Assembly: GCA_026397755.1 (NCBI GenBank)
Contig: JAPLUF010000128.1
Coordinates: 1-37,372 of the forward strand
Length of the DNA: 37,372 nucleotides
Source: Verrucomicrobiota bacterium
Lineage (GTDB): Bacteria; Verrucomicrobiota; Verrucomicrobiia; Limisphaerales; UBA9464
Direction of reading: 5' to 3'
Position 1 is the stretch's first letter; each line of letters starts with the position of its first letter. Below, in pieces: positions 8,802 through 14,039 of this stretch. The notes beneath the pieces were generated by a model. It worked only from the letters and a program-made list of their open reading frames with translations. It was not told the DNA's origin and did no database searches. Position numbers and translations under genes: made by a program.

Positions 8802-9881
8802 ATGGATCTCCTGCCGTTCATCGAGAAGTTTCGCCGCCGCTTGGACGAGGTGGAAGCACTCCTCGGTGCCCCGGACGCCTTTAGCAATGCGGCCCGAGGG
8901 CAGGAATTGACCCGGGAGCACTCGCGCTTGCGGCAATTTTTGGCCGATGGGGATGCTTGGTTGAAGATCCGCCGAGATCTTGCTGAAAACCGTGAGCTTT
9001 TGGCGACGGAATTAGCCGGTTCCGAGATGGCGATCTTGGCGGCCGAGGAGGTTCAGCGCCTGGAGGCCGAGGTATCACATCTCACGGCGGCGGTTCAGCG
9101 GGGTATTATCCCTCCGGACCCCACAGATTCTCGCAACACCATTCTGGAAATTCGGGCCGGCGCGGGCGGAGCCGAGAGCGCGCTCTTTGCTGCAGACCTG
9201 TTGCGCATGTACAGTCGCTATGCCGAGGATCGTAGTTGGAAGATCGAGCCGATGGATTCCAGCCCCTCCGATCTAGGGGGCATGAAGGAAGTGATTTTCA
9301 TGATCACCGGCGAGGATGTGTTCAAGCGCATCAAGCATGAGTCCGGTGTTCATCGGGTGCAGCGGGTGCCGGCCACCGAGGCCCAGGGACGGATCCACAC
9401 CAGCACGGTGACAGTGGCCGTCATGCCGGAGGCCCAAGAGGTAGATGTGGTCATCAAGCCTGAAGACCTAGTGATCAACGTCTGTCGTGCCGGTGGCAAT
9501 GGCGGTCAGGGTGTCAACACCACTGATTCGGCAGTTCGCATCTTCCACAAACCCTCCGGCCTCGATGTCCGCTGTCAGGACCAGCGTTCACAGCAGAAGA
9601 ACAAGGCTCAGGCCATGATGGTGCTCCGATCCCGACTGTTGGATCGGAAGATGGCCGAGGAGCACGCCAAGTACGCCCAGCAGCGCAAGGATCAGGTAGG
9701 CACCGGCGAGCGCTCCGAGAAGATTCGTACCTACAATTTCCCCCAGAATCGGGTGACGGATCACCGGCTGGAACTGACGCTCTACAATCTGGCTGTTTTT
9801 ATGGATGGCGACCTAGATCCCATGATTGATCCGCTGATGAACGACGAAGTGAAACGCCGCCTTGCGGCCATTGAAGCCTGA
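8802..9881 (+). CDS. prfA: Peptide chain release factor 1
   Basis: RF1 recognises UAA and UAG in the ribosomal A site and triggers peptide release. The 359-residue length is normal. The codon-recognition tripeptide PAT is at residues 190-192 in RVQRVPATEAQGRIHTS, which marks RF1 rather than RF2. The catalytic GGQ is at residues 234-236, followed by VNTTDSAVRI. The bases around GGQ are unusual: the normal GAGGQH reads GNGGQG, so the residue after Gln is Gly. The gene follows the rpmE2 terminator and is 4 bases from the downstream HAD gene, with which it is probably cotranscribed. prmC, the GGQ methyltransferase gene that often follows prfA, is not here. Confidence 0.96.
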   Translation: MDLLPFIEKFRRRLDEVEALLGAPDAFSNAARGQELTREHSRLRQFLADGDAWLKIRRDLAENRELLATELAGSEMAILAAEEVQRLEAEVSHLTAAVQRGIIPPDPTDSRNTILEIRAGAGGAESALFAADLLRMYSRYAEDRSWKIEPMDSSPSDLGGMKEVIFMITGEDVFKRIKHESGVHRVQRVPATEAQGRIHTSTVTVAVMPEAQEVDVVIKPEDLVINVCRAGGNGGQGVNTTDSAVRIFHKPSGLDVRCQDQRSQQKNKAQAMMVLRSRLLDRKMAEEHAKYAQQRKDQVGTGERSEKIRTYNFPQNRVTDHRLELTLYNLAVFMDGDLDPMIDPLMNDEVKRRLAAIEA

Positions 9882-9885
9882 CACG

Positions 9886-10485
9886 ATGCCCACTCTGCAA
9901 TCTCCCCGAGCCCTGATCTTCGACTGCGACGGAACCATCGCCCACACCATGCCCCTCCATTGGCGGGCCTGGCAGTCGGTGACTCGTCGCTACGGCATCG
10001 ACTTTCCGGAGACCCGCTTCTATGCCTTGGGCGGGGTTCCGGGGCGCAATATTCTGAAGATGCTCTTTGTGGAGCAAGGGATCGATGGACTCGATCCGTT
10101 GGCGATTGCTAAGGAAAAGGAAGCCGCCTACCTGGAATTTCTGCACGAAGTCGGACCGGTCGAACCTGTGGTGGAGATTGCTCGGCGTCACCGCGGCGTT
10201 CTACCCATGGCCATCGCGACCGGCGGGTCGCGACCGGGCATCCCGGCGGTGCTGCGACATTTGGGTATTTACGATTGGTTTGGTGCCATCGTCACCAGCG
10301 AGGACGTGGTGCTACAGAAACCTGCCCCCGATATTTTTCTGGAGGCCGCTCGGCAATTGGGCGTCGACCCGGCCCAGTGCCGCGCCTTCGAAGACACCGA
10401 CCTCGGAATGGAATCCATTCGAGCTGCCGGCATGGAGGCCATCGACGTTCGGCTCTTGCCAGATTATCCGAAGCCGATGGTCTGA
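9886..10485 (+). CDS. HAD superfamily subfamily IA phosphatase/phosphomutase
   Basis: This 199-residue cytoplasmic hydrolase has all four HAD motifs: ALIFDCDGTIAHTM (nucleophile and acid Asp), MAIATGGS (motif II), LQKPAPDIF (Lys) and AFEDTDLGMESIRAAGM (Mg ligands). The cap region MPLHWRAWQSVTRRYGIDF resembles beta-phosphoglucomutase and YqaB-type fructose-1-phosphate phosphatases; the choice between mutase and phosphatase is open. The ATG at 9886 is 4 bases after the prfA stop, so translation is probably coupled. A longer in-frame start at 9862 would overlap prfA. It converges on the GrpE-like gene. Confidence 0.88.
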   Translation: MPTLQSPRALIFDCDGTIAHTMPLHWRAWQSVTRRYGIDFPETRFYALGGVPGRNILKMLFVEQGIDGLDPLAIAKEKEAAYLEFLHEVGPVEPVVEIARRHRGVLPMAIATGGSRPGIPAVLRHLGIYDWFGAIVTSEDVVLQKPAPDIFLEAARQLGVDPAQCRAFEDTDLGMESIRAAGMEAIDVRLLPDYPKPMV

Positions 10486-10499
10486 TTCTGGGCGATTGG

Positions 10500-11294
10500 C
10501 TAGCTCTGGGTGGCTGCGGTCTCCCTGGCGGCGATGGCTACCTGGATGCGCCGGATGCCCACGCCTTGGAAAGTATAACCCCAGGCGATCGTTCGATCCA
10601 CCGTGGCACCCTGAGGGGGTTCGGAGCCGTCGGCAATTTCATGCCGCTCGCTATCGAAAGGCTCACCCGCTTGGGCTTCATACGGCAAGATGCCGACTCG
10701 GCGCGTCGCATCGATGCAGGCGTTCCGGTAGTTGCCGATTTGTTGGATCAACTGGGGTTGGCCCGACGCCGTGGCTGCTTGGAACAGCGCGAAACAATGG
10801 TCCATGAGGTGAATGACCACCTGCAGTGAATCCTTCTCACCGCGGCGCAGTTTTTCGATTTCCAGTCGGAGGGTGGCCTTCTCACCGTCGTTGGCACGGG
10901 TCAGGAACTCCGAGAACCCCTTGGCTTCCGCAGCGATCTGGCTGGCGATATTGCCGGCCGCATTCACGGTCTTGGTGGAAATGGACTGAATGTCCTGCCA
11001 TTGGGCGGTGGCGGCGGCAATTTGCTGCGCGGTCTTGTCGAGTGAGCTGAGTTTCTCGGCGGCGGAGGCCAGGTTGACTTGTTCGAAGAGCTTTACAGCA
11101 GCCTCGTGGTCCTTCTGGAAGGGTTGGATGAAAATCCAAGCCCCGAGCCCCGTCAGGCCACCTACGAGGGCCATTTCCCTCCAGGTCCACATGGGGGCTG
11201 CCTTCCAGGCCACGGCGGCGGCGGTGGCCACGAGGACCACATCAGCCAAGAGGTAGGGCCACTTGGGAGTGCGAGGGACTTCGCTCAACGACAT
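10500..11294 (-). CDS. Membrane-anchored GrpE-like protein
   Basis: This is a 264-residue protein with an unusual layout. Two hydrophobic segments occupy about residues 14-30 and 41-58, followed by a long Ala/Gln/Lys-rich probable coiled coil (60-155). The last 100 residues follow the GrpE pattern: a helix LQVVIHLMDHCFALFQ, then GILPYEAQAGEPFDSERHEI, then GATVDRTIAWGYTFQGVGI and RRIQVAIA. In GrpE these match the GV-x-x-I, FDP-x-x-HEA, V-x-x-x-x-x-x-GY and R-x-A-x-V-x-VA positions of the beta-wing that opens DnaK. GrpE is normally soluble with no membrane segments. A DnaK nucleotide-exchange role at the membrane is inference; the pattern match is by eye. It is monocistronic and divergent from the COG2907 gene. 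Confidence 0.7.
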   Translation of the reverse strand: MSLSEVPRTPKWPYLLADVVLVATAAAVAWKAAPMWTWREMALVGGLTGLGAWIFIQPFQKDHEAAVKLFEQVNLASAAEKLSSLDKTAQQIAAATAQWQDIQSISTKTVNAAGNIASQIAAEAKGFSEFLTRANDGEKATLRLEIEKLRRGEKDSLQVVIHLMDHCFALFQAATASGQPQLIQQIGNYRNACIDATRRVGILPYEAQAGEPFDSERHEIADGSEPPQGATVDRTIAWGYTFQGVGIRRIQVAIAARETAATQS

Positions 11295-11358: not shown

Positions 11359-11399
11359 CTCACAGGAGTGAGCGTTGGACATCCGACGGATATGTCGGA
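11359..11399. promoter_or_regulatory. Inverted repeats upstream of the COG2907 flavoprotein gene
   Basis: Two perfect inverted repeats lie in the divergent region: CTCAC-AGGA-GTGAG at 11359-11372 and TCCGAC-N6-GTCGGA at 11382-11399. The second ends 29 bases before the flavoprotein start and could be an operator. Confidence 0.35.
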
Positions 11400-11428
11400 G
11401 AATCCGGGGAGTTAACTGTGTCGTCCCC

Positions 11429-12724
11429 ATGTCCCCTCGTCCTTCTCTCGCCATCATTGGTACTGGAATTGCCGGACTCGGCTGCGCTCATTTCTTGCAT
11501 CGCCAGTTCGATCTGACGCTCTTCGATCCCAACAACCACGTCGGCGGGCATACCAACACCATCGAAGTGGTGGAGCCGGGCGGTCCTGTGCCTTTCGACA
11601 CGGGGTTCATGGTATTCAACCGGGTGACTTACCCCTATTTGGTGACCTTGTTCGAGGAACTCCATGTGCCGGTTCAACGCACCGATATGTCGTTCTCGGT
11701 TCAGCATGTCCCCAGTGGATTGGAGTTCTCGGGCTCCAGCTTGAATCATCTGTTCGCTCAGCGGCGTAATTTGTTTCGGCCCCGGTATTGGCGAATGCTC
11801 CTGCAGGTCAATCGCTTCAATGCCGAGGCGGTGCCCGCGTTGTCGGATCCGCAATGGGCCTCTGTGACCGTCGGCGATTATGTCGCACGTCGCGGTTACG
11901 GGCGGGATTTTCTCGAGCATTATCTCATTCCGATGAGTGGTGCGGTTTGGAGCACGCCTCCGGACCGGATGCTGGAGTTCCCGGCGCGCACCCTCATTCA
12001 GTTCTTCCACAACCATGGGTTCCTGGGCCTGCACACTCAGCATCCCTGGTGGACCGTGACCGGAGGGGCCCGCGAATATGTCCGCCGGCTGATCCCGCCC
12101 TTTGCCGACCGTATCCGGACCGGTTTGGGCGTGGTGGCGGTGCGTCGCGAGAGGGGCTCCGTTTGGGTGACCACTGACGACGGGCAGACCCATCGCTTCG
12201 ACAACGTGATCCTCGCGGCCCACGCCGATGAGTCACTGCGCCTGCTCACCGATGCCGATGCGGATGAGCGGCGGTTGCTCGGCGCCTTCCAGTATCAACC
12301 GAACCTGGCGACGGTGCACAGCGATCAGAACGTCATGCCCAAGGCTCGGCTTGCCTGGTCGGCCTGGAATTATCGCATGTCGCGGCATCCCTCCGGAGCC
12401 GTTCTCCCGCAGACCGTGTATTGGATGAACAGCCTTCAGGGCCTCAAAACGGACACCGACTATTTCGTGTCCATCAATGGCGAGCACGAGATCGATCCGG
12501 CCCGCGTTCACCGCAAGATTCCTTACACCCATCCGCTCTTCAGTCTGGAGGCCATTGCCGCCCAGAAGGAGTTGCCCGGCCTCAACCGTCGCGGAAACGG
12601 CCAGAATGTTTTCTTCGCCGGCAGCTACTTTCGCTACGGATTCCACGAAGACGCCTTCGGCAGTGCTGTGCAACTGTCCCGAGTCCTCAGTCACGAGCCC
12701 GTCTACCCGGGTATTGGTGAGTGA
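11429..12724 (+). CDS. FAD-dependent amine-oxidase-like protein, COG2907 family
   Basis: This is a 431-residue flavoprotein. The N-terminal dinucleotide fold starts SLAIIGTGIAGLGCAHFL, and the second FAD contact is the amine-oxidase-like VGGHTNTIEV. The family marks FDTGFMVFNRVTYPYL, FARR-type AQRRNLFRPRYW and the C-terminal VFFAGSYFRYGFHEDAF are all present. COG2907 genes usually sit beside DUF1365 and a cyclopropane-fatty-acid-synthase-like gene for modifying membrane lipids. Neither is present here; instead a sulfite dehydrogenase pair follows 91 bases downstream. The ATG at 11429 puts the FAD fold at residue 6. The substrate is unknown. Confidence 0.88.
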   Translation: MSPRPSLAIIGTGIAGLGCAHFLHRQFDLTLFDPNNHVGGHTNTIEVVEPGGPVPFDTGFMVFNRVTYPYLVTLFEELHVPVQRTDMSFSVQHVPSGLEFSGSSLNHLFAQRRNLFRPRYWRMLLQVNRFNAEAVPALSDPQWASVTVGDYVARRGYGRDFLEHYLIPMSGAVWSTPPDRMLEFPARTLIQFFHNHGFLGLHTQHPWWTVTGGAREYVRRLIPPFADRIRTGLGVVAVRRERGSVWVTTDDGQTHRFDNVILAAHADESLRLLTDADADERRLLGAFQYQPNLATVHSDQNVMPKARLAWSAWNYRMSRHPSGAVLPQTVYWMNSLQGLKTDTDYFVSINGEHEIDPARVHRKIPYTHPLFSLEAIAAQKELPGLNRRGNGQNVFFAGSYFRYGFHEDAFGSAVQLSRVLSHEPVYPGIGE

Positions 12725-12815
12725 CTGGAGGATCGTATGGAGGACCGTGGACAGGGTTCATTCTGTATCTCTCGGCGCTTTTCTAGGTCCATCATTCGGG
12801 GTTACCTTCGGATCC

Positions 12816-14039
12816 ATGCACCGGGAACTGGGAGAAGAGGGAACCAGCCGTCGGAGGTTCTTGAAGGCCGGCTTGGCTGGGCTGGCTGCTTCAGCCTGGG
12901 CTGAAGATAGGGTGCAACTGCCCTTCGACATTGGCGAACGGCCGCTAGTCAAGTATCCCCAGAAACGCCCCCTGATCCGTCACACGGCCCGTCCGCCGCA
13001 GTTGGAGACTCCATTTTCGGTTTATCAGGAAAGCCTGCTCACACCGAACGATGCCTTTTTCGTTCGCTATCACTTGGCCGGTTCGCCGCCTCCTCAGTCG
13101 GTGCTGAGCCCGGAGACCTTCCGCTTGCAAGTGCGCGGAACCATCCAGACGCCGCAGACCTGGAGCTTGGAGACGCTGAAGGAGAAGTTTGAGTCGGTCG
13201 AAGTGGTCGCCGTGAACCAATGCTCCGGAAATAGTCGAGGCTTCTTCCAACCGCGTGTTCCAGGAGGACAATCGGGCCATGGCAACATGGGGTGTGCGCG
13301 CTGGCGCGGGGTCCGCTTGGCCGATGTGCTCAAGGCTTCCAACTTGCTGCCTCAGTCTAAGCAGGTGCTCTTCGACGGGCTCGATCGGCCGTTGGTAGCC
13401 AGTATTCCCGACTTTGTGAAGGCGTTGGATGTTGAGCAGGCGCTCGACCCGGATGTGCTGCTTGCCTGGGAGATGAACGGCGAAGCGTTGCCTTGGCTCA
13501 ATGGCTATCCGCTGCGTCTGGTGGTGCCGGGGCGCTACGGAACCTATTGGGTTAAGCACTTGCACTCGATTCAGGTGGTGGACGCAACGTTCATTGGGTT
13601 CTGGATGAATCCGGCCTACCGCATTCCCGACGATCCTTGTGCGCATGTGGCTCCCGGAACCACGCCCAAGCGCACCGTGCCGATTGACCGGTTCAATGTG
13701 CGGTCTTTCCTCACCAGTCACCGGTCGGGAGATCGAATCGGGCCTGCAGGGCAGGGCGTGACGTTGCGCGGCATTGCCTTTGACGGCGGGTCGGGGATCT
13801 CGGATGTGACCGTGTCCACCGATGGTGGAAAGCGTTGGACGACCGCCCAACTGGGCAAGGATCTCGGCCGCTATGCTTTTCGAGAGTGGACCCTCGACTG
13901 GCGGCCTCCGACGGAGGGTTCGCCGGAGATTTTGGCCCGGGCCACCAATCGCCTCGGGCAAAGCCAACCAATGGATGCGCTGTGGAATCCAGCGGGCTAC
14001 ATGCGCAATGTCGTGGAACGAACCGTATTGAGCTTATGA
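12816..14039 (+). CDS. sorA: SorA-like molybdopterin sulfite dehydrogenase, Tat-exported
   Basis: This enzyme family oxidises sulfite to sulfate in the periplasm and passes electrons to cytochrome c. The 407-residue protein has a twin-arginine signal (TSRRRFLKAGLAGLAASAWA). The molybdenum-ligand Cys is at residue 136 in VAVNQCSGNSRGFF, and the cofactor-binding segment GHGNMGCARWRGVRL follows. The C-terminal third (from about residue 300) is the Ig-like dimerisation domain, with VSTDGGKRW. The last codons overlap the cytochrome gene by ATGA, which strongly supports a SorAB pair. An open frame reaches back to 12477 inside the flavoprotein gene, but the ATG at 12816 directly precedes the Tat signal. 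Substrate assignment as sulfite is by family; other sulfur compounds are possible. Confidence 0.85.
   Translation: MHRELGEEGTSRRRFLKAGLAGLAASAWAEDRVQLPFDIGERPLVKYPQKRPLIRHTARPPQLETPFSVYQESLLTPNDAFFVRYHLAGSPPPQSVLSPETFRLQVRGTIQTPQTWSLETLKEKFESVEVVAVNQCSGNSRGFFQPRVPGGQSGHGNMGCARWRGVRLADVLKASNLLPQSKQVLFDGLDRPLVASIPDFVKALDVEQALDPDVLLAWEMNGEALPWLNGYPLRLVVPGRYGTYWVKHLHSIQVVDATFIGFWMNPAYRIPDDPCAHVAPGTTPKRTVPIDRFNVRSFLTSHRSGDRIGPAGQGVTLRGIAFDGGSGISDVTVSTDGGKRWTTAQLGKDLGRYAFREWTLDWRPPTEGSPEILARATNRLGQSQPMDALWNPAGYMRNVVERTVLSL

Follow-up and report, generated by a model that had tools for sequence, protein, structure and literature searches.

GrpE is viewed as soluble and as serving whichever DnaK it meets, and the recruitment of DnaK to the membrane is ascribed to J-domain proteins. 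GrpE proteins of the family PF01025, e.g., those of E. coli (1dkg) and M. tuberculosis (8gb3), comprise a soluble disordered tail, a stalk helix, a four-helix bundle and a beta wing. A second GrpE besides the canonical one is described in Myxococcus (MXAN_6672/MXAN_6671), where it is encoded in an operon with its DnaK and where the available text of the report mentions no membrane anchor (PMC11019930). Hsp70 cochaperones of the inner membrane include DjlB and DjlC, J-domain proteins that are tail-anchored (PMC8215388). The protein described here, referred to as mGrpE, shares with GrpE the stalk, bundle and wing and the conserved residues D165, G201, FD..H, G239 and R248, but it has a predicted N-terminal transmembrane hairpin in the place of the disordered tail, the equivalents of Gly122 and of the stalk residue Arg64 are replaced, and its gene lies apart from dnaK and dnaJ. 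Like the Myxococcus protein, mGrpE occurs besides a canonical GrpE; like DjlB and DjlC, it is a putative Hsp70 cochaperone of the inner membrane, but with an exchange-factor fold and an N-terminal anchor instead of a J-domain and a tail anchor. No description of a membrane-anchored GrpE was found in the literature searched, which consisted mostly of papers accessible without subscription.

The window, i.e., the whole stretch of DNA analysed (37,372 nucleotides), is contig C169 of a Verrucomicrobiota MAG (G000; 3.79 Mb, 410 contigs, 80.6% complete). In all counts, "the order" means the order within Verrucomicrobiota to which the organism of the window belongs, probably Limisphaerales (Pedosphaerales). 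The mGrpE gene and its neighbourhood are as follows:

8802-9881, prfB
9862-10485, HAD hydrolase gene
10500..11294, minus strand, mGrpE gene with an ATG start, stop included, 264 aa, assigned from the open reading frame, orthologues and dN/dS
11375-12724, flavin amine oxidase gene
12477-14039, molybdopterin oxidoreductase gene

The preliminary description had stated that no dnaK or dnaJ is next to the gene, and indeed no chaperone gene was found among the nearest genes scanned in the window. Across the order, no conserved neighbourhood was seen around mGrpE, nor an operon or neighbour tie to a chaperone gene; genes of a UvrD/AddA-like nuclease-helicase and of fumarase, assigned by eye, recur near it in several families.

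Orthologues were found in 56/59 genomes, counting that of the window, and nearly always in single copy. Full-length mGrpE is present in 53 of the 55 genomes of the order and in none of the 231 other genomes of the class, and a phylum-wide sample contained no full-length mGrpE outside the order at 1e-12. One of the two negative genomes of the order (G054) shares a genus with G308, whose mGrpE is very divergent. A scan of viral contigs found no relatives. Comparison with seven close orthologues gave dN/dS values of 0.05-0.17, which indicates purifying selection. In orthologues down to ~30% identity, the KWPF motif keeps its register, as does the start codon; this and the dN/dS values show that the reading frame is more than a chance one. 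Among distant orthologues, 21/53 C-termini read TLF, TLL, TLI, SLL, ELPL, QLPL or similar (e.g., L065, L074, L106, L164 and L173), compared to 1.6 expected from composition, an expectation that ignores relatedness. This C-terminal peptide is absent from the genus of the window; it resembles clamp-binding or SSB-tail docking peptides.

The protein encoded in the window can be divided into the following parts:

11202..11261, minus strand, transmembrane helix 1 (residues 12-31, KWPYLLAD...), from the structure model, hydropathy and the alignment of 40 orthologues
11115..11183, minus strand, transmembrane helix 2 (residues 38-60), from the model, the alignment and orthologue hydropathy
10827..11114, minus strand, long coiled-coil helix (residues 61-156), the lower part of which, from ~103-115 on, aligns with the GrpE stalk
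10695..10826, minus strand, GrpE four-helix-bundle (dimerisation) part (residues 157-200), predicted from the alignment
10524..10694, minus strand, GrpE beta wing (residues 201-257), with G201, F213, D214, H218, G239 and R248 conserved

As a single sequence, the window protein found no GrpE match in Pfam, NCBIfam or PDB scans, and the relationship appears only through its family. PF01025 was matched at E <= 0.01 by 34 of the 40 aligned orthologues (best 2e-12), many of which also matched NCBIfam GrpE models, and the search of the genomes with PF01025 recovered 22 orthologous loci above the gathering cut-off as secondary matches, the best orthologue scoring 46.1 bits over positions 21-164 of the 165 of the profile. 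The preliminary description had proposed to search the protein with a GrpE profile and to let the absence of a match count against homology; the window protein alone has none yet its family matches, so such a reading would mislead. A profile of the 40 orthologues retrieved GrpE in all of its best six chains among PDB sequences, with E. coli GrpE (1dkg) first (E 5.1e-6) and Geobacillus GrpE second, and a profile-profile comparison of the whole family with canonical GrpE gave 94.5% and E 8e-8 over columns 114-262. Coiled coils give false matches, and the 61-residue wing was therefore searched on its own; its best six PDB chains were again all GrpE (best E 2.3e-5), and hhalign aligned it with canonical GrpE at E 1.8e-8. 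The earlier recognition of a GrpE beta-wing pattern in the last ~70 residues was thus sound, the motifs being present in the window protein as GILPYEAQAGEPFDSERHEI (residues 201-220), GY (239-240) and RRIQVAI (248-254).

The AlphaFold2 model of the window protein (pLDDT 85, pTM 0.41) led to the same family. The best seven Foldseek matches were all GrpE (1dkg, E 1.7e-5), and VIA-align superposed model residues 103-257, wing included, on GrpE with a Z-score of 10.1. For a long-helix protein, a Z-score of ~10 is weak alone; the next rows after GrpE reached 7.8 or less and consisted of long helices or hairpins, which are uninformative on the anchor. The superposition proposed in the preliminary description thus places GrpE first for the C-terminal fold. 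In E. coli numbering, Asp100, Gly138, the F-D-P-x-x-H motif, Gly177 and Arg186 are kept in 36-40 of the 40 orthologues, save Pro151 (20/40); the wing and bundle residues in common with canonical GrpE, in the numbering of the window protein, are D165, G201, G239 and R248 (40/40 each) and H218 (39/40). Both sequence and predicted fold thus confirm the window protein as a real, distant GrpE homologue.

The predicted transmembrane helices are separated by a loop of 6 residues and form a hairpin, the first helix carrying the motif that reads KWPFLLGD in the alignment of the 40 orthologues. The two membrane helices and the long coiled coil described earlier are present in the model and in the family; helix 1 of the window protein reaches a best 19-residue hydropathy mean of 1.77 (cut-off 1.6), but its helix 2 alone remains below the cut-off, so the assignment of the hairpin rests on the family, in which hydropathy backs both helices in most of the distant members sampled. 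The notion of a membrane-tethered GrpE relative was supported. Basic residues mark the cytoplasmic side of membrane proteins (the positive-inside rule); here they flank the hairpin both before helix 1 and after helix 2, which points to an N-in/C-in topology with both ends predicted in the cytoplasm. In the model, a single helix (residues 38-177) spans helix 2, the coil and the GrpE stalk. The GrpE-aligned span extends from ~103-115 to 257-262, and in local hhalign runs it begins at ~110-115, with a 7-residue insertion (one heptad) ahead of the bundle. The GrpE module is thus complete, with the anchor added in front of it; the idea that the membrane helices and coiled coil stand instead of the GrpE helix was wrong, stalk, bundle and wing all being present.

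Genome searches indicated that a canonical soluble GrpE is encoded elsewhere in 58/59 genomes, above the Pfam cut-off and with ~130-173 bits. The second, canonical grpE anticipated in the preliminary description was accordingly found in all 58 other relatives, but the PF01025 genome search did not find it in the MAG of the window itself, most likely because the sequence is absent from an incomplete assembly. In the three loci read, the neighbours of canonical grpE are dnaJ and a gene judged by eye to be RsmE-like, which argues that canonical GrpE stays the housekeeping exchange factor. DnaK is present in 59/59 genomes. In genome G026, matches to J-domain, GrpE and DnaK models also lie close together at a site separate from the canonical genes (contig C88:8826-11583). 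A membrane-anchored J protein was considered as a partner of mGrpE and rejected: the J proteins recovered lack a transmembrane helix and appear to be soluble and of the CbpA type, in a set of ten loci of the order (full proteins L156-L159, L161 and L162) to which the genome of the window and G010 did not contribute.

It is about an even chance that mGrpE is a strongly diverged second GrpE paralogue that is anchored in the inner membrane by its N-terminal hairpin and whose GrpE part lies in the cytoplasm and binds DnaK there. On this reading, mGrpE would dimerise through its coil and helix bundle as GrpE does, at a distance from the membrane, and its two wings together would bind a cytoplasmic DnaK, the simplest candidate being the ordinary one. 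DnaK could thereby be concentrated beside membrane proteins or a membrane-bound machine; alternatively, ADP/ATP exchange and client release on DnaK would be accelerated at the membrane. Nucleotide exchange by mGrpE is an inference from homology, and that the protein works as a GrpE is of moderate probability. The replacement of the disordered N-terminal tail of GrpE by the anchor counts against an exchange factor, as does the lack of an operon or neighbour tie to chaperone genes.

The residues that contact DnaK bear on this question directly. Residues of GrpE are numbered after the E. coli sequence, in agreement with the PDB alignment, and the DnaK hairpin after a presumed E. coli DnaK sequence. 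In the bundle part, Asp165, equivalent to E. coli Asp100, is invariant, and Gln185 stands in place of Gly122; this position is Gln in 37, Asn in 2 and Glu in 1 of the 40 orthologues, and it is Gly in 20/20 canonical GrpEs of the order, HMMER, hhalign and MAFFT concurring in the assignment of the column. In E. coli, GrpE with G122D is inactive, Gly122 sits where the DnaK hairpin 276-302 docks, and the beta-hairpin of the nucleotide-binding domain (NBD) of DnaK contacts the GrpE bundle (PMC10825016). The stalk residue Arg64 of M. tuberculosis GrpE is required for nucleotide exchange (PMC10803776); its equivalent in mGrpE is Ala in 24/40, and the equivalent of E. coli Arg183 is Gln in 22/40. Such changes suggest weaker, slower or differently regulated DnaK binding compared with soluble GrpE; binding in the canonical, though altered, mode is possible.

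The altered contacts at these three positions are also what would be expected if the GrpE fold had taken on a structural or adaptor role, in which bundle and wing dimerise and bind something else, without exchange on DnaK. This possibility, which deserves serious consideration even though we would not favour it, is also in line with the short hydrophobic, docking-motif-like peptide that ends ~40% of distant members and with the unrelated output domains that the anchor module bears in sister lineages. Outside the order, the family profile matched residues 1-160 of longer proteins, mostly of 380-660 aa, with E-values down to 4e-30; these proteins have a hairpin and coil homologous to those of mGrpE (~1-160), with a KWPF-like motif, and end in a different conserved domain in the place of the bundle and wing. 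The model of this domain (pLDDT ~94 there) resembles the starch-binding domains CBM20/CBM41. Two kinds of proteins with the same hairpin were recorded:

L113:5914-7404, plus strand, anchor and CBM20-like protein, also found in L114-L121, L123-L125, L131 and L132
L126:5461-5982 (minus strand), L127:5572-6486 (minus strand) and L128:5747-6262 (plus strand), short proteins of the order with an N-terminal LGRGLxxLM motif

The L113-type proteins of Verrucomicrobiia, whose C-terminal fold is of the starch/glycogen-binding kind, are predicted from the model to bind glucan while anchored in the membrane, and they go unrecognised by Pfam. The same hairpin and coil with a CBM20/CBM41-like end support the view that domains have been exchanged downstream of an anchor common to Verrucomicrobiota. 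The LGRGLxxLM motif resembles the ParA-stimulating N-terminus of ParB, and the short proteins are possibly membrane-bound ParA regulators. Against reuse of the fold for another purpose stand the GrpE wing and bundle residues, which are invariant across an order-wide family of ~30-40% identity, and the basic residues of the helix: the position of M. tuberculosis Arg75 is Arg or Lys in 31/40 in the hhalign register, but not in another one, the helix register being uncertain, and R143, K148 and R151 are conserved.

A narrower alternative makes mGrpE the dedicated exchange factor of a second DnaK (DnaK2, ~650 aa), which most genomes of the order carry, the two forming a separate membrane Hsp70 system. 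The NBD beta-hairpin of DnaK2 is four residues shorter in 16/16 sequences (L133-L148) and faces the region where mGrpE differs, and in Myxococcus membrane proteins are the preferred clients of the second DnaK that has a GrpE of its own (PMC11019930). The distributions, however, do not agree, and DnaK2 was rejected as a strict partner since co-occurrence fails both ways: six genomes of the order (G049, G116, G128, G151, G178 and G200) have mGrpE without a detected DnaK2, and DnaK2-like proteins occur without mGrpE in ~40 genomes from outside the order; in the loci read, the two genes are also non-adjacent. This alternative is thus unlikely, and the default partner of mGrpE would be the canonical DnaK. 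The same DnaK2 sequences carry extra residues inserted close to position 351 of the Pfam model, and DnaK2 is spread in the class more widely than mGrpE. Finally, chance resemblance of a coiled-coil membrane protein to GrpE, which the silent single sequence and the false matches of coiled coils might suggest, is highly improbable given that the coil-free wing profile retrieves GrpE from the PDB and can be aligned to canonical GrpE, and that the predicted fold matches GrpE first.

The broader reading of mGrpE as an integral-membrane GrpE, an order-wide second exchange factor that would tie part of the DnaK cycle to a fixed site on the membrane and whose interface would be retuned for this use, is held tentatively, at somewhat less than even probability. 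The near-universal presence of mGrpE alongside soluble GrpE in the order suggests that chaperones have a place to dock at the cell membrane. The mGrpE family also offers a natural set of GrpE proteins whose DnaK interface has changed and in which the need for individual contacts can be examined. If the integral-membrane reading is true, the exchange step of the DnaK cycle, too, can be localised at the membrane.
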